In this document: piece after piece, positions 7,445 to 31,678 of the stretch | Layout: the number at the start of each line of letters is the position of its first letter | Numbering within the stretch: position 1 is the stretch's first letter | IMG/VR virus record: IMGVR_UViG_3300032236_000604 | Span: 1 to 40,553 of that record | Origin: a virus | DNA: 40,553 bases | Strand: one strand, 5' to 3' | The notes under the pieces: model-generated | Database searches by the model: none | What the model saw: only the letters and a program-made list of their open reading frames with translations | Told to the model about the DNA's origin: nothing | Translations under genes and position numbers: made by a program

Positions 7445-10282
7445 ATGACGAGTTTTGACTTACTCGATGCCGTACTGCCCCCTGAAGGTAGGTACTGCGC
7501 TTGGGGAAACGGACGCTACATCAGTCAGAAGTTCTTTACGTCTCGCACAGAGTTTGACGAGAACATCAAGTGGCTAGTTGACAACAACTTTGATGCCTAT
7601 TTTGGCTGCGCCAAGTATGGCGAGGCCGAGAACCGCAAGCAGTCCAACGCGCTGTTTTTTAAAGCGTTGTGGATGGACATTGATTGTGGAGAAGAAAAGG
7701 CCAAGCCAGACAAGGATGGCAAGATCAAGGGATACGTTGACCAGCCGACTGGGTTCAAAGCAGTCAAGGCATTTATTAAGAAGCACTCCTTGCCCCGACC
7801 AATCGTGGTCAATTCTGGGTATGGACTGCATTTTTACTGGCCCTTGGATAAAGTTGTGCGGCGTAACGAGTGGGAGGCTGTAGCCCATAGGCTACGTGAC
7901 CTTGCGCTGGAAGACAGTCTGATTGTAGATACTTCAGTATTTGAAGCATCACGTGTGCTCCGCATCCCCGGAACGTATAACTTTAAAAACAGCCAACGAG
8001 CGCCCGTCGAGGTGCTAATCGAGGAGCATGATGTAACACCATACGATACATGGAAAACCCTAATCAATGCACCGGAACCCGCTGAGGAACGTGCATACAT
8101 ACCCCGCAGACTCAGCCCCCTGATGGAGTCAATGATGGAGAACCGTGTTAAGCGGTTCAAGACCATCATGATCAAGTCGGCGAGCGGAGAGGGCTGTAAC
8201 CAGCTCATTTACTGCTACGAGAACCAAGACAGTATCGGCTACAACTTGTGGCGCTCGGCTCTGTCGGTTGCTACGCACTGTGTGGATCGGGAATCAGCCA
8301 TCCACAAGATGTCTTCTAATCACCCTAGTTACAATCCGGGGGAGACAGAGGAGAAAGCATCAGACATAGGTGGGCCGCACCACTGCACTACGTTTGAGAA
8401 TGAGAACCCCGGTGGTTGTGACGGTTGCCAGCATAGGGGCAAGTTCAAATCTCCCATCATGCTTGGAGCTGAAGTAGCCAAAGCCGAGGACTTTGACGAT
8501 GGGGATGGCTCGAAAGAGGCTGAAGAGATTGTCGGTATCTACCCGCAAAATCTGCCAGAACCGTACTTCCGAGCCAAGACCGGTGCGCTCTACTACAACG
8601 TCCCCTCTGACGATGAGGAAGGACCGAGGTTGGTTTACGAGAACTTCCTCTACGTAGTAAAGCGCATGGTTGATCCCAATTTGGGAGAAGTAGCACTAAT
8701 CCGATTGCACCTACCACGTGATGGAGTTAAGGAGTTTCCCATTCCTTTAGCAGCCATAGTAGTAAAGGAACGACTGCGGGAAGAGCTAGCCAAACAAGGG
8801 GTAGCGGCGGGTGATGCACAGATGAAAGCACTGATGGCGTACTTGATTACGTACGTCAAAAACCTACAAGTAACTGATAAGGCTGAAACAATGAGAACAC
8901 AGTTTGGTTGGACCGAAAACGACTCCAAGATCATTATTGGTGACCGTGAAATCACCGTGGAAGGTACGTTCTACAGCCCCCCTTCAACCATCACTAAAGA
9001 TGTTTGCGACATGATGGTGCCGACTGGGTCGTTGGAGAAGTGGAAAGAAGCCTTCAACATGTACAGCAGACCGGGGCTTGAGGCACAAGCGTTCGGTGCG
9101 TTGACTGCGTTTGGGTCACCACTGCTCAAGTTCACGGGGATGAGTGGGGCGATCATTAACTTGATCCACCCTGTGTCCGGTACGGGGAAGACCACCGTAC
9201 TCTACGTATGCAACAGCGTAATCGGGCACCCCAAGAACCTGACTAGTATCTTCAAGGATACGTTTAACGCCAAGATCCACCGGCTCGGCGTGCTCAATAA
9301 CTTCGCCAACACCCTTGACGAGATTACAAATACGTCGCCGATGGAGTTCTCCGATCTGGCTTACAGCATCAGCCAAGGTCGCGGCAAGAACAAAATGAAG
9401 TCCCAAGTCAACGAGCAGCGAGTCAACTTGACCAGTTGGCAGGGCATCACTCTGTGTTCGTCAAACGCTAGCTTCTACGAGAAGTTGGGGATTGCTAAGG
9501 ATTCTCCCGACGGCGAGTCGATGCGCTTACTTGAGTACCACATTAAACCCAGTAGCATCATCAGTACCAGTGAAGGTAAGGAGATGTTCGATCACCAACT
9601 GTTCGAGAACTACGGGCACGCTGGTGATGTTTACGCTACTTGGTTGGTCAAGAACCGAGACGAAGCCATCCGTACCCTACGTGAAATCCAAGCTCGGATC
9701 GATAAGGACGTGCAGTTCACCAGCCGTGAACGCTTCTGGTCAGCTACAGCAGCGGCTAACATCACCGGCGGTCTGATCTCCAAGGCGCTCGGCTTGCACG
9801 ACTACGATATGAAGGCCGTGTACAAGTGGATGATTGAGATGCTCAAGGTCATGCGGGAGAACGTTGCGATTCCAGCACCAGACATGTCCAACGTACTCGG
9901 CGAGTTTATTAACGCTCACATCAACAACGTGGTTGTGGTCAACGGGAACATTGATTCACGTACCAGTATGGAAGCAGCGCCAATCCTTGAACCTAAGGGG
10001 GAGCTACATATCCGCTACGAGCCAGACACGAAGATGATGTATGTAAGCGTGCAGTCGTTCCGTAAGTATTGCGCCGAGCGGCAGGTCAACTACCGCAATT
10101 TTGTAGAGCAACTTACGGGCAAAGGCATCCTGACGGTTATCGCCAACAAGCGTCTATCAAAGGGGATGCGAGTCGTAGCCCCAGCGGTTCGGGCGATTGA
10201 GCTGGACACGACTAAGGATGAATTCCTCCACATGGATGAGTTTGTGAAGGCTGGCGATGGAGATAGAAACCGTTCAGTATAG
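7445..10282 (+). CDS. Primase-helicase fusion (AEP primase plus AAA+/SF3-type ATPase)
   Basis: A 945-residue replication protein. The N-terminal 200 residues carry archaeo-eukaryotic primase motifs: D78-x-D80 in LWMDIDCG (metal ligands), S124-G-Y-G-L-H129 (the S-x-H motif) and a third acidic site near D162, followed by R170-V-L-R-I-P-G-T, typical of phage and plasmid PrimPol-type enzymes. A zinc-binding segment follows, with C314, C325, C328 and flanking His (NPGGCDGCQHRG). The C-terminal half is an ATPase with Walker A VSGTGKTT near residue 576 and Walker B T-L-D-E at about 622-625, in the manner of DUF927/SF3-like helicases. It should make primers and unwind the fork, the core of phage replication. 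No family-A or B polymerase is visible, so the polymerase may come from the host or lie elsewhere. The start has only a weak Shine-Dalgarno and directly follows a terminator. Confidence 0.9.
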   Translation: MTSFDLLDAVLPPEGRYCAWGNGRYISQKFFTSRTEFDENIKWLVDNNFDAYFGCAKYGEAENRKQSNALFFKALWMDIDCGEEKAKPDKDGKIKGYVDQPTGFKAVKAFIKKHSLPRPIVVNSGYGLHFYWPLDKVVRRNEWEAVAHRLRDLALEDSLIVDTSVFEASRVLRIPGTYNFKNSQRAPVEVLIEEHDVTPYDTWKTLINAPEPAEERAYIPRRLSPLMESMMENRVKRFKTIMIKSASGEGCNQLIYCYENQDSIGYNLWRSALSVATHCVDRESAIHKMSSNHPSYNPGETEEKASDIGGPHHCTTFENENPGGCDGCQHRGKFKSPIMLGAEVAKAEDFDDGDGSKEAEEIVGIYPQNLPEPYFRAKTGALYYNVPSDDEEGPRLVYENFLYVVKRMVDPNLGEVALIRLHLPRDGVKEFPIPLAAIVVKERLREELAKQGVAAGDAQMKALMAYLITYVKNLQVTDKAETMRTQFGWTENDSKIIIGDREITVEGTFYSPPSTITKDVCDMMVPTGSLEKWKEAFNMYSRPGLEAQAFGALTAFGSPLLKFTGMSGAIINLIHPVSGTGKTTVLYVCNSVIGHPKNLTSIFKDTFNAKIHRLGVLNNFANTLDEITNTSPMEFSDLAYSISQGRGKNKMKSQVNEQRVNLTSWQGITLCSSNASFYEKLGIAKDSPDGESMRLLEYHIKPSSIISTSEGKEMFDHQLFENYGHAGDVYATWLVKNRDEAIRTLREIQARIDKDVQFTSRERFWSATAAANITGGLISKALGLHDYDMKAVYKWMIEMLKVMRENVAIPAPDMSNVLGEFINAHINNVVVVNGNIDSRTSMEAAPILEPKGELHIRYEPDTKMMYVSVQSFRKYCAERQVNYRNFVEQLTGKGILTVIANKRLSKGMRVVAPAVRAIELDTTKDEFLHMDEFVKAGDGDRNRSV

Positions 10283-10451
10283 GATCGACTGGACCAAGTT
10301 TCGGTTTGGAACATCCTTCTTCGTACCCTGCATCAACCATTACGCTGCCCGTAATACCATCGAAGCGTTTTTTAGGCGCTACAAAATAAAGGTGGTGACC
10401 AAGTTGGTCATCAACGAAGGTGTAAAAGGTCTGCGAGTCTGGCGCGTGTAG
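10257..10451 (+). CDS. Small basic protein after the primase
   Basis: A 64-residue protein that overlaps the end of the primase gene by 26 bases. AAGG at about 10246-10249 precedes the ATG. It has W-T-K-F-R-F-G-T-S-F-F-V-P near the start, a helix, and an ending GVKGLRVWRV. The layout G-x-S-F-F-V-P, helix, then G-x-R-V-W-R is one I recall in short unnamed proteins of proteobacterial phages, with a probable small alpha/beta fold. Strongly basic, so nucleic acid contact is plausible. Last gene of the rightward arm. Confidence 0.65.
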   Translation: MEIETVQYRIDWTKFRFGTSFFVPCINHYAARNTIEAFFRRYKIKVVTKLVINEGVKGLRVWRV

Positions 10452-10460
10452 TGCTAGAAT
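10452..10460 (+). promoter_or_regulatory. Possible extended -10 promoter
   Basis: TGCTAGAAT at 10452-10460 fits the extended -10 pattern TGnTATAAT with one mismatch. No good -35 box is seen upstream. If active it would give an RNA of about 70 bases ending at the terminator at 10511-10536. Confidence 0.35.
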
Positions 10461-10510
10461 AGGTTTTTCGGTGCTTGTTCGCTCTCCTCGGTGGGGTGTG
10501 CCACCTTCAA

Positions 10511-10536
10511 CTCCCGGCTAGACCGGGAGTTTTTTT
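10511..10536 (+). terminator. Rho-independent terminator ending the rightward arm
   Basis: CTCCCGG (10511-10517) pairs with CCGGGAG (10523-10529) around CTAGA, followed by seven T (10530-10536). The T run serves the rightward transcript. On the other strand the hairpin is preceded by A and not followed by T, so it stops leftward transcripts less well. It overlaps the stop codon of the convergent leftward gene by two bases. Confidence 0.88.
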
Positions 10537-13500
10537 ATTCCCCACGCTTAAGCGTCTTCTCTAAGCTATCAACCGAGTCACGCATAACCCTAGCGTTCTT
10601 CTCAGTAAGCGCAACACCGGCACGCTCAGACCCCCGCAGCTCAGCCCGTTTAAGGATTGAGTTGTAAATGTCCTCTGAATCAATAGCGTTCTCGGGATTC
10701 TTGCTGTTGAACTTGGGAAGTTCGTTGGCGATTATTGCGTCAAACCGGTCGTAGTTGTCGGTCTTTTCCGCGTTTCTGTGCTCAATGTTCAAGCGCTTGA
10801 GCAAGGTAGCACGCTCATTCATGACTCGCTGCTCTACACCACTTAACTTAAATGCACTTGCTTGTGCAGCAGCAACACGGTCGGGACGGAATCCAATCGC
10901 CTGACCAAACAGCTCGCCCTTAGTCAACGCTTCTTTGGGGATAAGTTCAGACCCACGCGAGCTTTCTACGCCTTCAGTAGCATATTTATGGGCAATTACA
11001 ATATTGCGTATAACTGATGGGCTAGCTTTTTCGATTGCTTTTTGATAGTCACCCAAGGCGTACGCCTCATACGCATCAATCATTGAAAGCCCTAAGCTAG
11101 CCGTTGGGCCACCGAAGTTATCAATCACAAAAGCAGTGAAGCTCTCCCTAGGTGTTTTCATGTCTTTGGATTCACGACCCCACAAATCATGTAAGCCAAC
11201 ACGCGAAGCGACATCCCAACCAGTAGCGGCATTAATCGGCCCTCGGGCAATAATGTCGGCTAAGGTGACGTTACCAAAAGATATATGCCCAAAGTTTTCT
11301 GGTAAGAACACAGTGTGAAACCATGTTCCGGGTTCTTTTTTCTTTAGATCGTCAGGTAGGTCATCATCGTCACCAAACTGCTTCCACGCCCAACCGAGCA
11401 GCCCCATGATGGGGCTAAAGAAGAGCATGTTGGACGTACCTGCCAGCATCAACGATGAAAACATAAGTCCAAAGAACTTGGTCGCGGCTTCCTTTTTACC
11501 TTCCGCATTTAAGAAAGGCATCATTTGCTTTAGGCTAGTAAGCGCGAGCAGGGTCATTTGCAGTGGGTACATCTTGAACTGGAAGGCAATTTTCCCCAGC
11601 CCTTTCTGCATCCAACGCGGTCGGTTCTCAATGTTGTAGTCACCAAGCGATTCATTTACGTCCGAGACTGCTTGATCAATTGCTTCATCGTTAGTAAGCC
11701 CACGCTGTTTACCCAGTCGGTAAGAGGCAAGATACAGAGCCTCCCGCGTCAACCGTTCCGTGTGGTGCATCAACCCGCCGACTAGCAAGTTAGCAGCCGC
11801 TTTACCTTTACCGACTACGCCTTCCAAGTTGGCATTAGGTGTACGGGCATAGCCCCAGACTAAAGAGGAGTACGTGGAATCCTGCACCCCACGTTCAGTC
11901 ATCTGACGAACTGCTTCCCTTTCGTCGGTTGGGAGTTTTTCGTTATTTGCTAGGCTTGGTGCAGCGTAGGAAAGAGTACCGTCAAGATTGCGTCGGGTAA
12001 TCCCGTACTGGTTGATGAACGTCATCATACGACCAATTTCTACAGCCGCCCCAGTAACGTTCCCGTGGTTGGCACCGAGTACAGGAATGCCAGAAATCAA
12101 AGGGCTGAACGGTTGTATCAATGCCGACGATGCACTAGACAGATACCAGAGGTACGAGAGTTTGTTAGCTGCACCAGCTATGGCATCAGCAATTCCAGCT
12201 TCACGTCCGGACAACGCTGACTCAACCCTACGCTGGGCTTCACGCACAATAGGAGTTAGCTCTGGGCGGTCTGACAGTAACGACCTAGCCGCAGTCAGAT
12301 TGTTGCGTAGGATCGGAGCGTATTTAAGGCGAGACAGTTGAGTCGCCATCTTCGATGCAGTGGTAGCCGTGTTCCTGACTAAGTCGGTACTGAAACCAGC
12401 AATCCCTTTACGATGCACAAACATCTTGCGGAATGTTTGCTCGGGCATCGTCTGCAAATAGATCTGATATACAGCGTCCTTCAGCCCTTCTTTAACGTCG
12501 GGCTCGGTCAAATCCTGCTTGTCGATGGCTTCAAAAAGTTCTTTGAGCAAGTTACTAGCGTCACGCGAAGCAGTACGTAACGAATTTATGTCATCCCCAA
12601 CACTGACTTCACGGTTTGCGTTTACTGCGCGTAACTGCTTGGCAAACTTATTGCGGTCCCGGCGGGACTCAAACATGAAGAACTGCCGACTGGGTCCAGA
12701 ACCAGTACCTACCCAGAAGTTTCCGCGACGAACCAACGGGAAAAAGGGTCTAATCGATTCTTGGCCTTCGTAAGCGAGCCGAATCATAGCCATCAATTTA
12801 GCTTTCGCTTCGTCGCTTATACCTTCTAAGTTACTGACTTGATCATCAAGCAGCAGACGGTACAGGTCATGCACCCGTTCGTAATACTCCCGCGTCAGTT
12901 TATATATTTCTTTGCCAGCAGGAGTCAGCGCTTTATAGGCGGCATCAAGTGTAGGCGAGCGCTCTTTCGCTGCAACAAGCGACGGATCAATACGAGCAAG
13001 TGTGGTCTCTAAAACTAAGTTCTCAATTTTACTTCTTTGGTCTGGCTCAGCGTTAAAAGTTCTTTGTTGCGCACTAATTATCTGCTCAGCACCCTCCAAG
13101 AACTCAGTAGCCATCCCCGTCATGTTCTGGAGATTCTTGTGCATATCGTTGAGCATGGGTACTTCTTTACCCATCCACTTAGCCAAGAAGTCAAACGTAG
13201 GCAGGCGAACCATCACCTCGCGCTGAGCGTTCTTTGCTCCCTCCCACATAGCTGGGAAGATCTCAAGTATCTGCTTGGGATCACGAGCAAGCTGCATCAG
13301 CTTTACCCCACGAGCTTCTTCTCCAGCACGCGATTGGGCTACTGTAATTTGCGCTTTCTTAACCGCGTCATCGATCTCTTCAGCACTTCGTTTGGCTTGG
13401 GCGGATACTTGCGTACTTGTATCTTCCAGCGGGGTAGCTTCCTCTGGTGCTTCCATGAGGTTATGGACTGCGAGGATGAGGTCGGACAGAGCGTTTACTT

Positions 13501-16500
13501 CGCTCTCTTTGATCCCAAAGAAGCTGCGGATATTCTGCACAAACGTAGGGAATAGGTACGTATCTTCATCGAACCCTTCGGTTCCCTTTAGGAACTCCTG
13601 CATCCGGTCGTCGGTCATGCCGTAAGCAACGAACTCCCGAGGATCGTCAAAAATTTCCCCGTAATTGGCAAGGGCAGATATCTCTCTGGGTAGCTCGCCG
13701 ACTTCCTCTAGTTCGTTGAACTTGTACCCAGCGAAGTTCATGATCTCAATCAAGCGCTCAAACGACTTGACTAGCTTAGATTCAAGATGGATACCCTTAT
13801 CAATATATTCCTTAGCTAGAGCAATCTTGTAGTTGGTAGCTCCGTGCAGTAGTTCATGCAGCACCGTGGTGTTGTTGGCGCCTTGAGATTCCCCAAACGA
13901 GGCACCGCGAACGTAAATAGAACGAACTTTTGTTTTGTAGTTCTCAATGTACAGCGCACGGGAACGCGCCCACTGCTCTGCGTTCTTGGGGCTTCTTAAT
14001 TGGTCAGGGATTGTGTCCCCTTCCTCAACCACAGTAAACCTTATGTTGCCAATCGAATTACGCAGTCGGTTAGCAATAGCTTTTTGAGCCGCAGTGCCGG
14101 TCCTAATAATATGGAAGAGCGCTTTCAACCCACTGGTAATACTGCGATAGGCTGGATCTACTGGCTCGGATATGGCTTTACCTGCTGCTGGCAGCGTTTC
14201 TTCCCGCAGGTTTACTCTGCTGACAAGCTCCATCCCCTTCTTAATGTCAGCCTTCTCCTGCTCAGTAATGCCGGGGCTATTGAGCAGGTCTTTAATCCGT
14301 TTATGAAGCGGTCGGCCACGAACGATTGGGTTGGCGTCGAGCTTGAGCAGTTCACGGATAGCGTCCTTTCTTTCTACCCGTTTATCTTCTTCAGCCTGAG
14401 CTACTTCTTCGTCAGTCTCAAACGCATCTTCATTTACAGGAGTAAGTGCGTTCTTTACCCGCTCAGTCAGCTTCTCAACCGAACGAACTATTTGAGCAAG
14501 CGTAGCCCGTTCAGGGGCGTTTTGTTTTTTCTTTTCCGCCTTCTCTTCTTCAGTCAGCGGCTTGCGCCCACGTTTGCCCTTAGGTTGTTGAGCCGCAGCT
14601 TTAGCCGCTTTCTGTTCTTCAGTCAGTGCTGGCCGACCCCGTTTCTTGGGAGCTTCGGCTGCGGCTGGAGCGGGAGGAATAGCTGTTTGGGTTTCGTTGT
14701 CCCAAGTGTATACACCGTCAGCAACGTGTTCGCCCGCAAATCTTTTATCGGCAATGTCACGAGCTTCTTCTTCCGTTTCAAAAACCCGTTCAACAGCGGG
14801 AATCCCACGGTCTAACCAATCAAGCCCAAAGCCACCATCCTTGTACTTAGTTATCCGCAGTGTTGGAGGGGTGGTCTTGGATTGTTTTTTAACTGCTTCG
14901 TCAAACGCTTTTAAAGCTACGTCGGTGTAATCTCTTTTGCCTTGCTCAGCAAGAGTATCTGCAAGGTTTTGACGGTATTCATCAATAGCTTCTTGTAACG
15001 ATTCATGAGCATTTCGTTGGTCAAAAGCCGTACTTACGTAATGGCTTGCCATATCGCGTGCGTCGGCTACACGTGCTTCTTCAGCGGCTTGCGCTGCTGC
15101 TTGTAATTTATCCGCGCCTTTTTGGAATAAAGCTTCAGCTCTTAAAATTAGATTTGGGTTTGTGATGCCCCTCTCCCGCATCGTGTCCCGAAGGTTTTCA
15201 AAATGCGTGTCGATTGAGTTTTGCAGCCCACCCCAAAACTCTTGCTGGTCTTCAGCGTCAACGAGCAAATCCTTTGCGAACTTGATGGGGTCAAACTTTT
15301 CTTTTACTGGAGCGGGCTTTGTTGCTTTTCCAGCAGGAGGCTGTCCAGCATCTTCTGAAGTAGGAACCACTCCGCTTGGCTCAGTTTCACTAGGTCCTCC
15401 GGGGGGGACTCCTGTATCGGAGACGCCAGCCACGCCAGCGCCTTCTCCACTTGGGGTAACGACAGTTCCTGTATCACGTTGTTCTCCTGCTCCAACTAAA
15501 GAATGCCCTTTATACCCAAGCGGCTCAAAAGAATATGCCAACAACTCTGCGTCAGATTTGTCTTTTGCAAACGCAGGTTTGAATTCTCTAGGGGCTTCAT
15601 CGGGGGCAATAATAAGTGCACCTCCGTCAGGAAGCCGTGCAATTCTTACCGGGAAAGTTCCGTTGTCTTCTGTATCAACTTGGTAATCTTCTGATGATTT
15701 AAATGGGCTACGTCTTTTTGGGGGTTTAGTTGCTGGTGTTTCAACTTTGGCAGCTTCTGCTTCAGCAAGCGCGTCGGCTTCGTCTTGCTCCTTTATCTGC
15801 GCTTCTGCCCGTTGGCGAGCTTCTAGTGGTGGCACACCAGCAGCAATGAATTCATCAGCAACATCAGCAACCCGCTTCTGAGCTTCAGAGACTGGACCCC
15901 GCTTGGCGACTTCTGCCTCCAGTAGGTTAACCAGCTCTTCGTTTCGCTCTTCTTCCGGTTTGTTTAGTTGGAACTCCAACGTAGCACGCACCGCAGCGTC
16001 GGGCCATGTGTCTACAGGAGGCAGTGCATTCTCAGGAGTTCTATCAACCGACTCGGCAATGCGACGAGCTTCCGACATTGGAATGCCCATCTTATTTATC
16101 CGCTTGGCCTCAGCTTCAATATCCCTTAGTGGCGGTGGCTCTGGTGCTTCTGGCGCACCCTCTTCCTTGAACACAGGCTCTTTACGTTCACCGAACAACT
16201 CTGCGCTTAGATCCCTTCCAATTGTAGGTTCGGTAGGGGCAGGAGGTGTGGGTGGTGCAATACCCGGTACTTGTCCAGCTTGGAGTTCTTTAGCTTCGCG
16301 CAGTGCAGACCTAACTTCTAGTGGCGCACTTCCTACTTCAGCAAGCCCTTCCAATAGAACATCTGCTGGGCTTGTAATTTTCCCTTTTGTGGCTACTTGA
16401 CCCGCAGCTTCACCACCAGCACCGCCAGCTATTTGTACGCCCAGCTCTTTAGCCCAAGCCGACACCGTCGCATTACGAGCAGCAGGGCCAGTAAGTTGCC

Positions 16501-17470
16501 CAGCCTTAATTAGTTCCTGCGCGGGGCGCATAAAACGCCCAGCCAGTCCAGCCGTAAGTGCATCAAACCCGCCAACAATCAACCCACGTTTGACCCCTAC
16601 TTCCTTTATCTCGGCCATTATTTTGGGGTTGCGCAGTGCTCTCTCTATAGCGACGGGGTCTAGTAAGTTCACCCCCTTATCTTGGAGCACGTCGGCCATA
16701 GCCGAACCATACTCAAGACCCCCAGAACTTATACCTGCGGTAGCACCTCTAGCTACAGCACCAGCAGGGCCGAGCGCCATAGCAGGAGCCATCATTGGTA
16801 ATGAGACTGCCAACGAGTCCACAAGCATCGTAAAAGTAGCTCGGGGGTTTGCCGCTAATTGATATGTGGCATCGCCAAAAGTTTTGGCGTTACCAATCTT
16901 CATCATGCCTTCTTGGATATCTTCCGAAGGCGCAGCAGCAGCACGATCCCGTGCTGTTTGGGCTAATACTCTGGCGGTTTGATCAGGTTTGAGTGCTCCA
17001 GCTTGGAACAAAGAAGCAGCAGTGGCTTCCTTCAAACCAGCTTTGGCGCGTTTGCCTACGTTAACTACACCTTCAGTGTACGTCTTTTCAGCCGGGGTAA
17101 TTTCACCAGTTATGGGCTGAGCCGGGGGTTTGATTCCCGTAGGGACAGCTTGCTGTTTGAAGTACTCACTACCACGGGACTGACCGTGCTTAATGATATC
17201 GGGCCACGATATGCCTATTTTGGCAAACGCATCTCGAACTCCCTGCTGAGGAGCATTCTCCTCCAGCATGTTTACTGCATCGTCTAACGCCTCAAGTCTG
17301 TTTTTATATGGAATTTGTTCCGTTGCTTGAGGAGCAGGGGCAGCTACGGGTTTAGGCGCAGGAGTAGGAGCGGCACCGAACAGTTCCGCACTTAGATCTC
17401 TACCTTGTTCGGGGGCAGCAGGGGTAGGAGCGGGACCGAACAGTTCCGCGCTTAAATCACGACCGGCCAT
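10535..17470 (-). CDS. Giant polyvalent ejection protein with metalloprotease motif and AT-hooks
   Basis: A 2311-residue protein, last in the late operon. The N terminus holds GRDLSAELFG at residues 3-12 and 23-32 and again at 418-427, embedded in Pro/Ala-rich sequence. A hydrophobic helix-rich stretch lies near 210-260. Two AT-hook-like runs, KKRGRPALTEEQ near 942 and KRGRKPLTEEEK near 965, suggest minor-groove DNA binding. H1205-E-L-L-H1209 is the HExxH zinc-protease motif, with E1279 in PREFVAYG as a possible third ligand. The remaining 1000 residues are helical, with hydrophobic segments (MLFFSPIMGLLGWAW) and a charged C terminus. This matches the large 'polyvalent' proteins that phages inject with their DNA (described by Iyer, Aravind and colleagues). 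It probably enters the host at infection, protects or processes targets, and helps cross the envelope. Domain limits are approximate. Confidence 0.85.
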   Translation of the reverse strand: MAGRDLSAELFGPAPTPAAPEQGRDLSAELFGAAPTPAPKPVAAPAPQATEQIPYKNRLEALDDAVNMLEENAPQQGVRDAFAKIGISWPDIIKHGQSRGSEYFKQQAVPTGIKPPAQPITGEITPAEKTYTEGVVNVGKRAKAGLKEATAASLFQAGALKPDQTARVLAQTARDRAAAAPSEDIQEGMMKIGNAKTFGDATYQLAANPRATFTMLVDSLAVSLPMMAPAMALGPAGAVARGATAGISSGGLEYGSAMADVLQDKGVNLLDPVAIERALRNPKIMAEIKEVGVKRGLIVGGFDALTAGLAGRFMRPAQELIKAGQLTGPAARNATVSAWAKELGVQIAGGAGGEAAGQVATKGKITSPADVLLEGLAEVGSAPLEVRSALREAKELQAGQVPGIAPPTPPAPTEPTIGRDLSAELFGERKEPVFKEEGAPEAPEPPPLRDIEAEAKRINKMGIPMSEARRIAESVDRTPENALPPVDTWPDAAVRATLEFQLNKPEEERNEELVNLLEAEVAKRGPVSEAQKRVADVADEFIAAGVPPLEARQRAEAQIKEQDEADALAEAEAAKVETPATKPPKRRSPFKSSEDYQVDTEDNGTFPVRIARLPDGGALIIAPDEAPREFKPAFAKDKSDAELLAYSFEPLGYKGHSLVGAGEQRDTGTVVTPSGEGAGVAGVSDTGVPPGGPSETEPSGVVPTSEDAGQPPAGKATKPAPVKEKFDPIKFAKDLLVDAEDQQEFWGGLQNSIDTHFENLRDTMRERGITNPNLILRAEALFQKGADKLQAAAQAAEEARVADARDMASHYVSTAFDQRNAHESLQEAIDEYRQNLADTLAEQGKRDYTDVALKAFDEAVKKQSKTTPPTLRITKYKDGGFGLDWLDRGIPAVERVFETEEEARDIADKRFAGEHVADGVYTWDNETQTAIPPAPAAAEAPKKRGRPALTEEQKAAKAAAQQPKGKRGRKPLTEEEKAEKKKQNAPERATLAQIVRSVEKLTERVKNALTPVNEDAFETDEEVAQAEEDKRVERKDAIRELLKLDANPIVRGRPLHKRIKDLLNSPGITEQEKADIKKGMELVSRVNLREETLPAAGKAISEPVDPAYRSITSGLKALFHIIRTGTAAQKAIANRLRNSIGNIRFTVVEEGDTIPDQLRSPKNAEQWARSRALYIENYKTKVRSIYVRGASFGESQGANNTTVLHELLHGATNYKIALAKEYIDKGIHLESKLVKSFERLIEIMNFAGYKFNELEEVGELPREISALANYGEIFDDPREFVAYGMTDDRMQEFLKGTEGFDEDTYLFPTFVQNIRSFFGIKESEVNALSDLILAVHNLMEAPEEATPLEDTSTQVSAQAKRSAEEIDDAVKKAQITVAQSRAGEEARGVKLMQLARDPKQILEIFPAMWEGAKNAQREVMVRLPTFDFLAKWMGKEVPMLNDMHKNLQNMTGMATEFLEGAEQIISAQQRTFNAEPDQRSKIENLVLETTLARIDPSLVAAKERSPTLDAAYKALTPAGKEIYKLTREYYERVHDLYRLLLDDQVSNLEGISDEAKAKLMAMIRLAYEGQESIRPFFPLVRRGNFWVGTGSGPSRQFFMFESRRDRNKFAKQLRAVNANREVSVGDDINSLRTASRDASNLLKELFEAIDKQDLTEPDVKEGLKDAVYQIYLQTMPEQTFRKMFVHRKGIAGFSTDLVRNTATTASKMATQLSRLKYAPILRNNLTAARSLLSDRPELTPIVREAQRRVESALSGREAGIADAIAGAANKLSYLWYLSSASSALIQPFSPLISGIPVLGANHGNVTGAAVEIGRMMTFINQYGITRRNLDGTLSYAAPSLANNEKLPTDEREAVRQMTERGVQDSTYSSLVWGYARTPNANLEGVVGKGKAAANLLVGGLMHHTERLTREALYLASYRLGKQRGLTNDEAIDQAVSDVNESLGDYNIENRPRWMQKGLGKIAFQFKMYPLQMTLLALTSLKQMMPFLNAEGKKEAATKFFGLMFSSLMLAGTSNMLFFSPIMGLLGWAWKQFGDDDDLPDDLKKKEPGTWFHTVFLPENFGHISFGNVTLADIIARGPINAATGWDVASRVGLHDLWGRESKDMKTPRESFTAFVIDNFGGPTASLGLSMIDAYEAYALGDYQKAIEKASPSVIRNIVIAHKYATEGVESSRGSELIPKEALTKGELFGQAIGFRPDRVAAAQASAFKLSGVEQRVMNERATLLKRLNIEHRNAEKTDNYDRFDAIIANELPKFNSKNPENAIDSEDIYNSILKRAELRGSERAGVALTEKNARVMRDSVDSLEKTLKRGE

Positions 17471-17478
17471 ATAGCCCC

Positions 17479-19035
17479 TTACTGAATTGTGTAGCCCTTA
17501 GCCTTGGCTGCTGCAATTACTTCGGCTTCAGTCTTCCCTGTACTCTTGGCCGTAGCAGCTATGTCAGCTTGAGATACTACTTTACCACCAGTGGCGGGGG
17601 CAGTGGGAGCGGCGGCAGGAGTAGTGGATCTACTGGGGAATGTAGAAGGAAGTAGTTCTGGAGGTAACGCATCGCGTTTGTAGTCGGCAATGTAAGCTTT
17701 TTTGGCTTCATCTTCGTTAGCAAACTTAGCCGAGTACTCTTTCCATTTCTTCTGGTTAAGAAGGGCAAACTCACCAAGAGCTTTAACCGCATCGCTAGTC
17801 GCTTTAACCCCAGCACCAACGCTGGAAGGGGCCATACCAATACGGTAGTCCCTAAGAGCTTGGGCTTGGATTCTTTCATCAGTCCAATCTGGATGTTCAG
17901 CTTTAAGCTGCCTTGCAAGTGTGGCAACACCTGATGCTTGATCCGTAGGTGTTTTTGCTGCTCTGTTTGCAGCAGCTTCAGCAGCCTTAACTTTAGCTCG
18001 GGCGGCAATATTTGCCGCACTTTCTTTACCTGCAACACTGGCGGCAGCAGTAAGCGATTTGCCAAGTAGGTTAGCAACGGTCGTGTTGTGAGTGTTAGCA
18101 ATCTTGGCAGCGTCAACGTGGTACTTCTGCTCATCGTCAAAGCGACCTTCAGCGTGAGCGCGTCGGGCTTCGTCGAGTTTGTTGAGCACTTCCATCTTAG
18201 CTTGCTGTAATCCAAGCTCCTTCATACGCAAGCCTTGCTCTTGCTCAAGTGCCTGCTGCTCTTGCTTGTTAGCTAAACTAGAGTAGCCCCCAAGGATACT
18301 GGCTAGCGCACTACGCCCATACTGCCCACGGCTACCAATCGCAGCCTCACCCAACTGTTGGAACAGACTCGGCTTTGCCTTCTGAGCTTCTTCGCGTTGT
18401 TTACCGTATTCGGCTGCTTGGGCTTTCTGTAGGTCCGCCAACCTAGCTTCAACATCTCCACCGATTGGCTTAACCAGCGACCCAAACAAAGCAGGGTTTT
18501 CTTTAGCCAAGCGAGCACGAGCCTTTTCTGGGCTTTCACCCGGACTAGGTGCTGTTTGCCTTCTAAGGTTCTCCGCCTGCGCTTCTAGTTTTGCAAGAAC
18601 ATCTTTTGATGAGCCTGAGTAATCTTCGGCAGTTGCGTCTTCATCACCATCATCTTCGTCATCAACCGCATCACCTTTAGCAAAGGCAATAATCCCACCC
18701 GAGCCAAACTTAGCCACGTTGTCTTGGACAGGGAGGCCAGCTATACCAGCTTGTTGGGGCTGGGGCTGAGCTTGTGGTTGTTGAGCTTGTTGGGGTGCAG
18801 CCATAGCCATTGCTTGCTGCTGAACCTGTTGGCTAACTGTGCCTTGGGGTTGTTGACCAGCTTGCTGCTCTTGCGCTAGCTGTTGCATCCGCTTGTTGCG
18901 GGATTGCAGTTCTCCCAATGCCACATAAGGAGGCACAGTTGGGTTCATACCGTTGGCATACTGCGCCAACAGTTGAAGGGTTTGGGGTGTGTTAGGAAGT
19001 TGACGAAGATCGTCTTGGATTTGAATTAGGTTCAT
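17479..19035 (-). CDS. Internal virion/ejection-type protein, Gln/Ala-rich
   Basis: A 518-residue protein. The head (LIQIQDDLRQLPNTPQTLQLLAQ) is followed by a Gln/Ala/Pro-rich linker (residues 55-100), then KFGSGGIIAFAKGD and a very acidic patch (DDEDDGDEDATAED). The centre is a long predicted helix or coiled coil with many Lys, Glu and Ala (about 200-360). The C terminus is Pro/Ala/Thr-rich with a final small helical piece, SQADIAATAKSTGKTEAEVI. Low-complexity helical proteins next to the giant polyvalent protein fit injected internal virion proteins of podoviruses. No catalytic motif is seen. Start and upstream stop overlap as TAATG. Confidence 0.65.
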   Translation of the reverse strand: MNLIQIQDDLRQLPNTPQTLQLLAQYANGMNPTVPPYVALGELQSRNKRMQQLAQEQQAGQQPQGTVSQQVQQQAMAMAAPQQAQQPQAQPQPQQAGIAGLPVQDNVAKFGSGGIIAFAKGDAVDDEDDGDEDATAEDYSGSSKDVLAKLEAQAENLRRQTAPSPGESPEKARARLAKENPALFGSLVKPIGGDVEARLADLQKAQAAEYGKQREEAQKAKPSLFQQLGEAAIGSRGQYGRSALASILGGYSSLANKQEQQALEQEQGLRMKELGLQQAKMEVLNKLDEARRAHAEGRFDDEQKYHVDAAKIANTHNTTVANLLGKSLTAAASVAGKESAANIAARAKVKAAEAAANRAAKTPTDQASGVATLARQLKAEHPDWTDERIQAQALRDYRIGMAPSSVGAGVKATSDAVKALGEFALLNQKKWKEYSAKFANEDEAKKAYIADYKRDALPPELLPSTFPSRSTTPAAAPTAPATGGKVVSQADIAATAKSTGKTEAEVIAAAKAKGYTIQ

Positions 19036-20084
19036 TAGCTACCACCGGTTCCAGTACCAGCCCCAGTGCCCGTTGGGGGAGTAGTTTTAGTGCCAAACAA
19101 ATTTCCAAGACCCGACGAACTAAAAAGATCCGCCAGACTACCCTGCCCAGTTACACCCAGCAGCTTATCAACACCACCCAAGGAAGACAGCAGTTGGGCA
19201 ATCCCACTTAGTTGAGCAGGTTGATTACTAACCGCACTGACCGGCAACCCAGACAACATATCACGCTGGTACTGAAGTTGCTTCAATGGATATTCACGCT
19301 GCTTCTCAAACTCGGCTTTGTCCGCAGCAATCCCTTCAGAGGTAATCCCACGCTGAGCTTCACCCAGACCAGCCATCTGCTGCAAAAGCCCTTGTTGTGC
19401 CTGCAACCCTTTCAACCCAAAGTCAGCTCCATATTGAGCTTCTTGAATTTTGCGCTGCTGCTCAGTATTGAACTGCTGCTGTGCTTGGTTAAATGCGCTT
19501 GCGTACCCCTGACCAACTGTCTGGTTTAAATTACGCATCAAGTCAGCGTTTGCTTGGGCCTGACCAATTGCTTGCCGACCGCCACCAAAAGCACCTGAGC
19601 CAGCGTACTGAGCACCGAGCGCATTCTGAGTGATTTGATTCTGTCGGCGAAGCGCATCCAGTTGGGGGTTAAGGACAGACTGCAAATACGGATTCATGTA
19701 CTGCTGAACAGGACTCTGCCCAGCATCTGTAGCTACAGGAGTGTTTGCATCCGTAGGCCCAGCACCACCAATCAACCCACTAACACCGGGGGGCTGATAC
19801 GCTCCAGCCGAAGAAAACGTACCACCAACAGGAGTGTACATTCCCTGATTGGGAACACTTAGGTTACCAATACCTTGGAACGCTTTAGTCTGTAGGTCGG
19901 ACGCGCCCGCAGTTAGCGGGCCTTGGTACGTTTGATATGGTGTGTTGGCTAGAGCTTGCGCTTTACCGAGGTAGTCGGTGATATACCCAGCAGCCCAAGG
20001 AGCTAGCCCTTGAGTCGAAGTCCCACCCACCGCCGGGAGTGATGAACCCGCCGTACCACCAGTAGCTGCAACATCTGTACCCAT
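19035..20084 (-). CDS. Internal virion/ejection-type protein
   Basis: A 349-residue protein. Its core, YMNPYLQSVLNPQLDALRRQ followed by a helix-rich Gln stretch (NQAQQQFNTEQQRKIQEAQ), is a pattern I recall in internal proteins of freshwater and marine podovirus-like phages. The ends are Gly/Thr/Ser/Pro-rich and probably disordered (TTPPTGTGAGTGTGGS). There is no membrane helix or enzyme motif. The Shine-Dalgarno AAGGA lies before ATG at 20084. Placed between two other low-complexity proteins, it is likely part of the ejectosome or inner core. Confidence 0.65.
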   Translation of the reverse strand: MGTDVAATGGTAGSSLPAVGGTSTQGLAPWAAGYITDYLGKAQALANTPYQTYQGPLTAGASDLQTKAFQGIGNLSVPNQGMYTPVGGTFSSAGAYQPPGVSGLIGGAGPTDANTPVATDAGQSPVQQYMNPYLQSVLNPQLDALRRQNQITQNALGAQYAGSGAFGGGRQAIGQAQANADLMRNLNQTVGQGYASAFNQAQQQFNTEQQRKIQEAQYGADFGLKGLQAQQGLLQQMAGLGEAQRGITSEGIAADKAEFEKQREYPLKQLQYQRDMLSGLPVSAVSNQPAQLSGIAQLLSSLGGVDKLLGVTGQGSLADLFSSSGLGNLFGTKTTPPTGTGAGTGTGGS

Positions 20085-20093
20085 GATTAATCC

Positions 20094-22601
20094 TTACGCT
20101 GGCAGGTAGCGGTCGGCGTGGGAGTCTTCACCTCGACCTACTTTTTTACGGGCTTTATGTACACGCTGCATCATATTGAGCAGTTTATCCGCACCAGCAT
20201 TGGTAGACCCATTACCCAACTCCGCTACAGTCCTAGCGTCTACAACGAATTCCCCACGAGCTAATCTAGCTGGCTGTTTAGACCCAATCGTAGCTGGGAT
20301 GGAGTCCGACACACCGTCCCCAGAACCATCTAAAAGACGCCCTTTAGCTGCACCAAGCCCAGCAATACCACCAGCGGCCATCTTAGGTGTGTACTGTACA
20401 GGATTAAAGTAATTAATTCCACCCTGACCCGGACGGTATGTTGGCGCTTGGGTTTGCGAGGTATAAGGCGTTTGTGTTTGAGTTGCCGTCAAAGCTGGAA
20501 TAGTGGCCGAGGAAGCGGGGGAGCTACTGCCTTTACTTTGACTTGCCGCATACATCATCAACAACAGCGGAAGAAGCGACCCTAAACCAGTTCCTTGATT
20601 TGCTGCGGTGCCTGCGCCAGCAGCAGTTTTAGTTGGGGTGGTGGCTGCGGCTGCGGCTTTGGCTGGTGTAGTAGACGCAATTCCAGTTAGTTTCTGTGGT
20701 GTACCTGTAATGGCTTTACCGGTTTGATCATACCCCGACCCAGAACCACCAAGTAAGTTACCACTTCGGTCATACGTTAGAGTGTTTCCAGTATCGTCTT
20801 TCTCTTCCCATTTTTCAGTCGTAGGACTCCAAACAGCAAGTGGCCCGACTCCAGTAGGTCTATCAGGTGTATCACCCCAAGAAGAATCTAAACCGGGAGA
20901 AACCTCAGAAGTAGTTTGCGTTGTGTACCCCGGTGGCGGGGCAATATCCTCAAACGGGTCAACCGGATAGCTAATAGTTTGAGCAGGTAACGAAACTACG
21001 GGCGCTGTTGATACCTCTGCTGGCGGCGTCTCTCCACCCAAGGGGCCACTAGTAAGATCTAAACCATTGATATACTGACTTAGATCGTAGCTAGGAATGT
21101 CCTCATCAAGATTCCAATCGTCACCCATAGCAGTCGTCCCTGAAACGTTTGTTGCGGTTAAGCCCGGACTAGCCGGTTGTTGCAAAGTTGAATCTGTAAA
21201 AGCACTAGTGTCGAACTGAGTCGGCTCGGGAGCAGCATTAGTATCACCAAGCCCAGCGCCCGAATAACTAGTCGGTATTGTTTGCAAAGAGGCAGTTGGG
21301 TCTATCCCTTCTGTACTAGCTAAATTACTCAAATCAAAATTATCGTAGCCACCCAGTCCAACATCAGAATAGCCGCTTGGTATGTTCTGTAAATAAGCAG
21401 TTGGGTCTACCGTCCCCATATTAGCTTGGATTGAACGGTCATCAATTGGGGCAGGAGCAGCACTAGCCCCTGCGTTAGCCAAACCACCCAAACCGACCAA
21501 CGAGCTAAGCGCACTTAGTGGCTTACCCGACATAACCCCTTGGGCTAAAGAGACGCCCTTACCGATAGTGCTTAGATCTTGATTGCCTGTAAGTGAACCT
21601 ACGGAGCCAAGAGCAGTACCAATGTTGGGGTTACCAGAAGCCAAGTTTGCTGCTAATCCCGCAGCATTACCAACATCCCCAAGACTAAACCCAGTGCCAC
21701 CAATTGGAGTGCTGCCAAGACCGCCAGCAAGATTGGGATTGGAAGTGAGAGCATTTACCGCCCCGCCTAAATTACCTTGTTGAAGGGAATTAATTACTTT
21801 CGTGCCAGTGGTAGCGGTTTTTAACCCACCAGTAACGTCTTTTAACGCGGATAAATACGAACCAGCCGTAACGTCTATTGGGAGTGTAGTGTTTCCAAGT
21901 CCCGTAGTTGGGGCGCCCGCAGCCCAGTCAGAGCCAACAATATCTGGCCCACCAATTAACCCAGCACCAGTAAGCCCAGCGCCAGCTAGACTAGCCAAAC
22001 CACTTAAATAGCCTAGTGGAGTAGTAGCATGAGCTAAAGTATCAGCTCCTTTAGCAGCCATAACAAACGGCTGGATTGGGGACGGGATGATCGACCCAAT
22101 AGCCATAATAGCTTGGCCGACTGGACTGTCACGAAGGAACCCATGAGCGCGGGGGCTCCACTGCGGAGTAAAACTAATGTTGCCGTTATCGTCAGCGTTT
22201 AGATGGAAGAATATATCCCCACCAGAAACCCCACTCGTGCCGTTTTGAATGATTCCAAGACGGGTTGGGTTGATTTCACTGCCGGTGGCTTTGTTGAAAT
22301 ACTGCTTTACAGGTACGTCTTCTGTACCACCGGGGCTAACGTCTTCAATTGGCGGTGTATACCGCGTCTCCATAACTGTACGAACACCAATATCCTTGGT
22401 GCTACCAACACCTTGCTTCTGAAGACCTTCGGCAATAGCCCGGTTCTGGGGGTTATCCCCACCAAGTTCAGCAAGCAGAGCGGAAAGGTCTGGACTAGAA
22501 GTAGGTGCAGCCGCAGGAGCGGCTTGGGGGGCTAGCCCAGCAATACCAGATGGCGCAGCGGAGACCTCTGGGTCTTGTAAATCCGTTTGTTGAATCGCCA
22601 T
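20094..22601 (-). CDS. Large internal virion protein, ejection type
   Basis: An 835-residue protein. The N-terminal third includes the hydrophobic stretch SPVGQAIMAIGSIIPSPIQPF and a Gly/Ala/Leu-rich segment (LASLAGAGLTGAGLIGG) that may insert in membranes. The middle is Ser/Thr/Pro/Gly-rich and low in complexity. The last 110 residues look conserved: MAAGGIAGLG, then GRLLDGSGDGVSDSIPATIG, then R-G-E-F-V-V-D-A and a basic end RVHKARKK. I recall this C-terminal block from many environmental phage proteins, unnamed. A membrane-active, disordered protein beside other ejection candidates is consistent with a pilot or ejection role. Its start has a poor ribosome site. Confidence 0.65.
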   Translation of the reverse strand: MAIQQTDLQDPEVSAAPSGIAGLAPQAAPAAAPTSSPDLSALLAELGGDNPQNRAIAEGLQKQGVGSTKDIGVRTVMETRYTPPIEDVSPGGTEDVPVKQYFNKATGSEINPTRLGIIQNGTSGVSGGDIFFHLNADDNGNISFTPQWSPRAHGFLRDSPVGQAIMAIGSIIPSPIQPFVMAAKGADTLAHATTPLGYLSGLASLAGAGLTGAGLIGGPDIVGSDWAAGAPTTGLGNTTLPIDVTAGSYLSALKDVTGGLKTATTGTKVINSLQQGNLGGAVNALTSNPNLAGGLGSTPIGGTGFSLGDVGNAAGLAANLASGNPNIGTALGSVGSLTGNQDLSTIGKGVSLAQGVMSGKPLSALSSLVGLGGLANAGASAAPAPIDDRSIQANMGTVDPTAYLQNIPSGYSDVGLGGYDNFDLSNLASTEGIDPTASLQTIPTSYSGAGLGDTNAAPEPTQFDTSAFTDSTLQQPASPGLTATNVSGTTAMGDDWNLDEDIPSYDLSQYINGLDLTSGPLGGETPPAEVSTAPVVSLPAQTISYPVDPFEDIAPPPGYTTQTTSEVSPGLDSSWGDTPDRPTGVGPLAVWSPTTEKWEEKDDTGNTLTYDRSGNLLGGSGSGYDQTGKAITGTPQKLTGIASTTPAKAAAAATTPTKTAAGAGTAANQGTGLGSLLPLLLMMYAASQSKGSSSPASSATIPALTATQTQTPYTSQTQAPTYRPGQGGINYFNPVQYTPKMAAGGIAGLGAAKGRLLDGSGDGVSDSIPATIGSKQPARLARGEFVVDARTVAELGNGSTNAGADKLLNMMQRVHKARKKVGRGEDSHADRYLPA

Positions 22602-30016: not shown

Positions 30017-31678
30017 TTACGCGGCGATTTGTGTCCAATACGGATTCTGGCTATCGTCAACCTGAACCCATCCGGGTGTTTGTGGATTTGAAATCTGTGT
30101 CCAACCCGAAGATTGACTATTGTCGATTGCAGTCCATGTTGGTGTTTGGGGGTTGCTAATTACTACCCAATTTGGATCCTGCGGGGTTGGAACCGGAACC
30201 CAATTGTTATACGGAAGGGTGACTTGGCCGACAGACCCAACGCCTTGGACACCGTTGACTAATAATACAACAGGTTGCGGTACAACAACATTACCAATTT
30301 GTCCGGTGCCTTGCACACCGGTAACGGCAACACCAAGCTGAGTTGTTACTGATCCAATCGACCCAGTAGCAGATACTCCATCGACATATACAACAATAGA
30401 CCGGAATACGTCGCCAATCTGACCGACGCCTTGAACACCGGTAACTGCAACTGTAATCGGTGCAACGACTTGACCAATAGCACCGGTACCCTGTACCCCA
30501 GTAACAGAAGCGATAACTCCAGAAACCGCTGTTACAGTACCTACTTGTCCAGTACCGGAAACCCCAGTAACTGTGTACGAAGACGGAATCGCTGCCGTTA
30601 CTTGACCGACCGCGCCCGTACCGAAAACACCACTAACAGCAAATGGTGTTACTACACTAACCTGACCAACAGCGCCGTTACCCTGAACGCCAGTAGCAGT
30701 TAGCCCAGAAACATAAAATGCAGTGTTCTGGAATGCGCCAGCGTCAAACGCTCCGTCCGTACCTACTAGTGCAGCAAACCCAACTTGGCCTGTAGCTGAT
30801 ACGCCCGTGAGCGTGACCGAGACTGATACACCAGCACTAGCAGACCCAACTTGGCCCGTGCCTTCAACACCGGTAATAACAAACGATGTTGCTACAACCG
30901 CCTGACCGACCGTACCAGTACCAGCAACTCCGGTAACTGTGTAAGATGAGGGGATGACTGCGGCTATCTGGCCGACTTGACCAGTACCTTGGACTCCAGC
31001 AAGAGTTAGACCCGCGACATAAAACGCGGTGTTTTGGAATGCGCCAGAATCAAACGCACCATCGGTACCGATTAAAGCAACGGTTCCAACTTGGCCTGTA
31101 CCTGATACCCCAGTTACAGAAACACCAACTGAAGCGCTAGCTTGTACTGATCCAACAGCACCGGCACCTTCAACCCCAGTAACAGTAACGCTACTCGGAG
31201 AAGCAAAGGTTATTTGACCTATTGCCCCAGTACCGGCAACGCCAGTAACTGTGTAAGACAGCGGAATTACTGTGGTTGTCTGGCCGACTGAGCCAGTACC
31301 GGCGACGCCCGTGACTACAAACGCGGTCGAGACAACGGTCTGACCTATAGAGCCAGTACCTTGGACCCCGGTAACTTGAACACCAAGCTGGGTTGTTGGT
31401 GTTCCTATCGCTCCTGTACCGGCAACGCCGGTAACTGAGAATACCTGATTAAAGGTAACTGTTACAGTGCCGACAGCACCAGTACCTTGGACCCCGGTAG
31501 CGGTTAAACCCGCAACATAGAACGCGGTTGGGTCGAAACCAATACCATCAAACGCGCCGTTTGTATCGACCGCTTGAACTGTTCCTACAGCACCGGTGCC
31601 CTGAACCCCGGTAACTACTGCGCCAGCTTGTACCTCAAAAGCGTTGGGGTCAAACGCTAGGCTGAACGCAGCCGCCAT
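30017..31678 (-). CDS. Repeat-built tail protein, twenty VTGVxGTG units
   Basis: A 553-residue protein. From residue 22 to about 490 it holds twenty copies of a unit of about 20 to 22 residues with consensus VTGVQGTGAVGQ plus a variable beta strand. Three inserts of the form G-T-D-G-A-F-D-x-x-x-F-Q-N-T-A-F-Y-V-A-G-L extend some units. Residues 493-553 switch to five 11-residue units W-x-x-I-x-N-x-Q-x-P-x. The composition suggests a beta-solenoid or fibrous appendage. I know of no named family. It lies between the tail fibre and the assembly chaperone genes, so an adhesin or fibre part is likely. Confidence 0.75.
   Translation of the reverse strand: MAAAFSLAFDPNAFEVQAGAVVTGVQGTGAVGTVQAVDTNGAFDGIGFDPTAFYVAGLTATGVQGTGAVGTVTVTFNQVFSVTGVAGTGAIGTPTTQLGVQVTGVQGTGSIGQTVVSTAFVVTGVAGTGSVGQTTTVIPLSYTVTGVAGTGAIGQITFASPSSVTVTGVEGAGAVGSVQASASVGVSVTGVSGTGQVGTVALIGTDGAFDSGAFQNTAFYVAGLTLAGVQGTGQVGQIAAVIPSSYTVTGVAGTGTVGQAVVATSFVITGVEGTGQVGSASAGVSVSVTLTGVSATGQVGFAALVGTDGAFDAGAFQNTAFYVSGLTATGVQGNGAVGQVSVVTPFAVSGVFGTGAVGQVTAAIPSSYTVTGVSGTGQVGTVTAVSGVIASVTGVQGTGAIGQVVAPITVAVTGVQGVGQIGDVFRSIVVYVDGVSATGSIGSVTTQLGVAVTGVQGTGQIGNVVVPQPVVLLVNGVQGVGSVGQVTLPYNNWVPVPTPQDPNWVVISNPQTPTWTAIDNSQSSGWTQISNPQTPGWVQVDDSQNPYWTQIAA
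30216..31615 (-). repeat. Array of twenty degenerate coding repeats
   Basis: About 20 tandem units of 60 to 66 bases, each encoding V-T-G-V-x-G-T-G-x-V-G, lie inside the gene at 30017-31678. Units vary at the DNA level but keep Gly and Thr positions. The 11-residue tryptophan repeats at 30017-30202 are a second, unrelated array in the same gene. Confidence 0.85.

Follow-up and report, generated by a model that had tools for sequence, protein, structure and literature searches.

The window (the whole stretch of DNA analysed, a 40.5-kb virus record) carries on its minus strand the open reading frame of a giant protein, P0001. This gene is the last of a run of consecutive ejection genes, in which it follows the genes for a phrog_4287 DNA ejection protein and for a protein that ends in a short domain, here called the dock. 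P0001 itself carries copies of a short peptide, here called the tag. The coordinates of these features are given in Table 1. Elsewhere in the window, a 553-aa protein (30017-31678, minus strand) consists largely of VTGVQGTGAVGxV-type repeats, about two dozen in number, and a 945-aa primase/helicase (7445-10282, plus strand) weakly resembled Cch1, the replicative helicase of staphylococcal cassettes (NF047345; 40 bits, well short of the cut-off).

Table 1. Features of the ejection gene region in the window
Feature	Position	Strand	Basis
P0001, giant tagged ejection/polyvalent protein, 2311 aa, gp16/TEP position	10535..17470	-	ORF, LUZ19 TEP homology, LPD39, PLxRFG tail-700
Tag copy 1, GRDLSAELFG, residues 3-12	17435..17464	-	exact match
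Tag copy 2, GRDLSAELFG, residues 23-32	17375..17404	-	exact match
Tag copy 3 (internal), GRDLSAELFG, residues 418-427	16190..16219	-	GWETIVP at homologous site of L002/L003
AT-hook-like Lys/Arg runs KKRGRP and GKRGRK, residues 941-975	14546..14650	-	sequence
Zincin-like domain, residues 1085-1345	13436..14218	-	homology, conserved pattern
HELLH, residues 1205-1209	13844..13858	-	sequence motif
E1279, likely third zinc ligand (REFVAYG)	13634..13636	-	invariant in alignment; pattern 49/49
LPD39 domain, residues 1416-1561	12788..13225	-	E 6.5e-8, above Pfam cut-off
PLxRFG tail-700 domain, residues 1575-2293	10592..12748	-	NF032893 E 3.5e-109
Cognate dock, last 34 residues of upstream protein (KVVSQADIAATAKSTGKTEAEVIAAAKAKGYTIQ)	17482..17583	-	predicted beta-helix-helix-beta
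Dock-bearing upstream virion protein, 518 aa, gp15/OEP position	17479..19035	-	position deduced from gene order and C-terminal type
DNA ejection protein, 349 aa, gp14-like position	19035..20084	-	phrog_4287 E 9e-11

Residues 1125-1346 of P0001 matched residues 351-563 of the LUZ19 internal virion protein, for which a structure has been solved (PDB 9sfn_G, E 7e-8), and a zincin profile that includes LUZ19 matched the PhiM1 TEP weakly (8vb2, E 0.02). H1205, E1206, H1209 and E1279 were invariant in an alignment of P0001, CP2 and LUZ19; E1279 lies 74 residues past the first His of HELLH, and the HExxH motif with a downstream Glu was kept in 49 of 49 relatives. Because of this invariance and this pattern, a zincin site in P0001 is likely. 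The HELLH that the earlier note had read from the sequence is present, and E1279 is the likely third zinc ligand for which it had proposed a test. Both AT-hook-like runs it had described were also found: one is canonical (KKRGRP, with RGRP at 944-947) and one a variant (KRGRK, with RGRK at 967-970), and both are retained in two relatives. A further RGRP, at residue 1051, has non-basic surroundings.

P0001 was placed at the gp16/TEP position, with a polyvalent character, because of its LUZ19 homology, its LPD39 and tail-700 domains and the DNA ejection gene two genes upstream. On this homology and gene context, it is a gp16/TEP-type ejection protein of a podovirus-like phage with a polyvalent (LPD39, PLxRFG) C-terminus, and its earlier description as an "ejection-type protein" is supported by its homology with an ejectosome protein whose structure is known. 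Like the tetrameric LUZ19 ejection protein (9sfn) and, weakly, PhiM1 gp48 (8vb2), P0001 comes last in its series of ejection proteins and has a homologous HExxH...E domain; unlike LUZ19 gp37, which has no N-terminal tag, it adds N-terminal tags, LPD39 and PLxRFG. Its large size, LPD39, tail-700 and zincin domains and virion gene context are those of a polyvalent protein. According to the accessible text of Iyer et al. 2017 (PMC5512222), such proteins are giant and multidomain, with a zincin HEXXH plus Glu, an LPD domain and a virion gene context; P0001 differs from their description in that text by its N-terminal tag and matched upstream dock. As a separate observation, residues 379-511 of 8vb2 chain A (PhiM1 TEP) contain HEAAH and a downstream HEF, a zincin-like signature comparable with 9sfn_G 333-562. 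The PhiM1 paper calls this domain endolysin/exotransglycosidase-like (PMC11440229), an annotation that may need revision in view of these motifs.

The three exact copies of GRDLSAELFG listed by the earlier note were confirmed. Across all six frames of the window, no further 10-mer scored 24 or more of 50 against GRDLSAELFG, and since nothing else in the six frames comes near, the repeats are not due to chance. The DNA of the three copies differed by 4, 6 and 7 bases between pairs, and all of these differences were synonymous, indicating that the peptide is conserved and not the DNA. In residues 1-60 of P0001, the fraction of Pro, Ala, Glu, Lys, Gly, Ser and Thr was 0.67.

We compared the window with L002 and L003, which are about 90% identical to it over the best segment. 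The results showed WETIVP at all three tag sites of L003, and WSVVSETP, WEVVSETP and WETIVP at the tag sites of L002. The identity of the flanking DNA was mostly 80-98%; it dropped to 22-45% across the dock, the gene junction and tags 1-2. In the 60-base block around the third tag it was 53%, and a segment of about 30 bp with clear edges had been exchanged. The dock, the two N-terminal tags and the third-tag segment have therefore all been replaced between the window and these relatives.

A degenerate tag scan over 2.9 million viral contigs returned 30 stretches. In 29 of them the match was a tagged phage protein, in most cases one that carries two copies at its N-terminus. The other, L027, was rejected as a chance match. 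At all 29 phage loci selected by the tag, the upstream gene ended in the dock, with the consensus KTxTLADIAATAxxSGKTTAEVTAAxxAxGYTIG (about 34 residues) for the GRDLSAELFG class, referred to as class 1. A search with the dock gave 34 loci, 33 of them with a readable next gene, and this gene started with a class-1 tag in 33 of 33 cases, although many of the dock-selected contigs also belong to the tag-selected set. Diverged tags at these loci included GTDLSADLF and ADFSQLLYG. The dock was present once per phage record in 10 of 10 records. The 41 non-redundant tag-dock pairs drew on 7 families of upstream bodies and 9 of downstream bodies, unrelated to one another, and the third bases of invariant dock codons were near-random, indicating selection on the protein. 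The absence of the tag from related phage proteins, which the earlier note had named as a refutation, was not observed: the tag is conserved on many phage proteins that are otherwise unrelated. One tagged giant (L034, 4115-8101, plus strand) has ddrB-ParB and ART-PolyVal domains, placing the class-1 tag on a different polyvalent payload.

Searches outside these contigs gave little. In 257 Gb of bacterial genomes, used as a background control, the class-1 tag pattern had 13 matches, and the seven that were resolved were single, non-tandem chance matches; the dock profile, run without a positive control, found none in 398 genomes of one bacterial phylum. Among isolate phages, a near-identity search with the window found none, searches with the class-1 dock, tag and upstream protein gave none or chance matches, and searches with the docks of four other classes gave none. 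Seven isolate giants with homologous parts were without clear N-terminal tag repeats, the sole case among them being a weak WRPxDPxG pair in the giant of Microcystis phage Mwe-JY07. The IMG-numbered contig names of two class-1 phages, L043 and L047, suggest isolate genomes; these may be prophages of cultured bacteria and thus tractable.

We then considered giants chosen by the zincin domain only. This search found 80 loci, and 49 non-redundant giants were kept, with tags ignored in the choice. At most of the loci found, the giant opens with two or three copies of a short motif, and each type of motif pairs with one type of upstream C-terminus. The tag types included GRDLSAEL, WETIVP, WEVVSETP, FVPL/FTPL, WTPPSDAV, FSLEEAL, LSPEEWLA, NFFDTFD, IVDPFA, FDPSTA and others, and tag type matched the upstream C-terminus across at least 15 unrelated classes (n = 49). 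The similarity of tags was correlated with that of upstream C-termini (Mantel r = 0.871), and remained so once zincin similarity was removed (partial Mantel r = 0.847; n = 49, 0 of 5000 permutations). On the zincin tree, the minimum number of changes was 31 for tags, 30 for docks and 31 for both jointly, with dock class regexes written after seeing the data. Blind clustering, which agreed less well than the regex classes, gave an adjusted Rand index of 0.66 between tag and dock against 0.31 between tag and zincin. In three domain-type classes the polarity looks reversed in the sequences, the giant having a small domain at its N-terminus and the upstream protein ending in a short motif (NPIKI, NPRIxW or PPGF; L154, L157, L162, L190, L194, L170, L179). 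Four further domain-type giants (L178, L192, L193 and L195) were without a recognised partner motif.

The same survey bears on two other readings of the tags. Wherever zincins were 0.97-0.99 similar and the tags unlike, the upstream C-termini were always unlike as well (for example L126/L129, L142/L151 and L153/L157). Such near-identical zincins carry wholly different tags, and the zincin motif is kept in every giant regardless of tag, which makes self-cleavage at the tags by the HELLH zincin, a possibility raised in the earlier note, or cleavage there by a prohead protease very improbable, even though P1 DdrB, which is polyvalent and contains an MPTase domain, is reported to undergo processing before packaging (PMC5512222). 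A host protein as docking partner after injection is just as improbable. An ejected protein would present its disordered N-terminal tags to the host, but tag identity tracks the upstream phage protein and not the body of the giant (partial Mantel 0.85). Of the earlier suggestion that the tags are docking sites for a host protein or virion-packing signals, the kind of answer therefore stands and the host partner does not, as what covaries with the tag is the C-terminal end of the neighbouring phage virion protein.

Our preferred reading, to which we assign a probability of roughly 0.77, is that the tags dock onto the C-terminal domain of the protein encoded just upstream, and that each tag-dock pair is an exchangeable specificity cassette. 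The main alternative mechanism is pure linkage, in which a short DNA block across the gene junction recombines, so that a C-terminus and the next N-terminus change together without contact. The dock, stop, start and first tags all lie within about 250 bp, and the junction gaps are often a few bases, so one pair of crossovers could swap both, and linkage contributes to the co-swaps. As the whole explanation, however, it is improbable. Of 39 giants, 13 had internal tag copies, mostly 300-500 residues (0.9-1.5 kb) away, that matched their own class; for foreign classes there were 5 matches in 661 comparisons. This difference speaks against linkage alone. Close relatives that have a different dock showed a degenerate motif, or none, at the homologous internal site (GDWEVEAETPTAE versus GDLDAKPPAPTTE; in a further example, PTLDPWTVEEETPIAP versus PTLDA-----EQPAPP). 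In L010 (reverse complement, 8688-10722), the ejection protein begins with an SLT transglycosylase domain of about 125 residues (Pfam SLT, 7e-13), followed by two GRDLSAELF tags about 400 bp from the gene junction, and the dock is still upstream. Linkage also leaves unexplained the repetition of the tag and its protein-level conservation on unrelated bodies.

Another possibility is that the tags bind a different virion component (portal, scaffold or a gp14-like protein), and that the upstream C-terminus merely shares that partner. An 835-aa protein (20094-22601, minus strand) offers some support, since its N-terminus also varies among the window, L002 and L003; its C-terminus is conserved, and it is possibly another swap site. 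We regard a shared partner as unlikely, about as much as pure linkage, because tags and upstream C-termini correspond almost completely, and because the dock is predicted to fold in two classes.

These predictions came from AlphaFold, for which the input was a stop-read-through: the upstream product was continued across its stop into the in-frame downstream gene, so that a single linked chain stood in for the complex. In the FVPL class, the first tag (KFVP) was predicted as a strand beside a three-stranded dock, with a pLDDT of 84 for the tag block and about 90 for the dock, and a pTM of 0.48; this read-through has a 5-residue linker and a shallow alignment, and was judged by secondary structure and pLDDT. 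In the GRDLSAELFG class, the dock was predicted as beta-helix-helix-beta with a pLDDT of 93-94, and the tags reached about 55-61 (pTM 0.39). The models thus support tag-dock contact in the FVPL class and are inconclusive for the GRDLSAELFG class. An IF2_N or HTH-like fold had been suspected for the dock. When it was searched against Pfam at E up to 10, no family scored above its cut-off, and Foldseek and VIA-align gave no significant match (best Z 2.9), so that no fold was assigned.

Docking between consecutive gene products has precedents. In T7 gp16, residues 1-156 form a transglycosylase, and residues 157-228 form a "molecular tape" that cements gp15 and stabilises its C-terminal part (PMC8954989). 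As in T7 gp15-gp16, the genes here are consecutive ejection genes, and an N-terminal stretch of the last large protein would face the preceding tunnel protein. The resemblance extends to L010, in which a transglycosylase domain precedes the tags just as one precedes the tape of T7 gp16; from this repetition of the gp16 layout, with tags in the tape's place, we infer that the tags are modular docking motifs. Unlike in T7, recognition in our system appears to use short repeated motifs and a separate C-terminal mini-domain of about 34 aa, in many sequence-unrelated, interchangeable classes. The docking domains of PKS/NRPS megasynthases, which include SLiM-beta-hairpin docking and fall into several classes (PMC9113145), likewise form complementary matched pairs between the C-terminus of one product and the N-terminus of the next, and some of these pairs also combine a SLiM with a small domain. 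They differ in that no sequence relation was found, that the present pairs belong to phage virion proteins, and that the tag is repeated 2-3 times with internal copies, the short motif being mostly N-terminal and the domain C-terminal. Internal copies of the giant's own class would also be unusual for a T4-type capsid-targeting sequence, an N-terminal signal removed by the prohead protease. The logic of PKS docking domains and that of the T7 tape are thus already known. Searches of the open-access literature gave no description of an exchangeable code linking phage virion proteins, and none of the open-access papers searched prints DLSAELFG.

In the mechanism we propose, the GRDLSAELFG repeats would be recognised by the dock of the protein at the gp15/OEP position, and several tag copies would provide avidity toward an oligomeric ring of docks. 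Docking would thereby bring the giant into the virion core, tie it to the periplasmic tunnel during ejection, or both, which is the role that the gp16 tape plays on gp15 in T7. Related phages carry at least 15 different cassettes and swap them as matched sets, with the internal tag copies. The tags and docks, their near one-to-one pairing, their concerted replacement and the homology to a TEP protein with a solved structure were observed here, whereas we infer that tag and dock bind physically, where and when they do so, and why the cassettes diversified. More tentatively, and with somewhat less than even confidence, the cassettes could form an orthogonal identity code of virion assembly, by which a phage would load and eject only giants bearing its own tag, cross-loading in mixed infections would be prevented, and payloads could be swapped via a matching tag. 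If this is true, dozens more natural orthogonal peptide-domain pairs would be expected.

Little is known about how phages load giant effector and tunnel proteins into their heads and keep them in order during ejection. The tag-dock code is a rule that can be read from sequence, in which the C-terminus of one gene product predicts the tags of the next, and its classes supply many natural orthogonal peptide-domain pairs. Such a code would explain how non-homologous giants plug into one ejection machine, and it offers a route to annotating cargo in uncultured phages.
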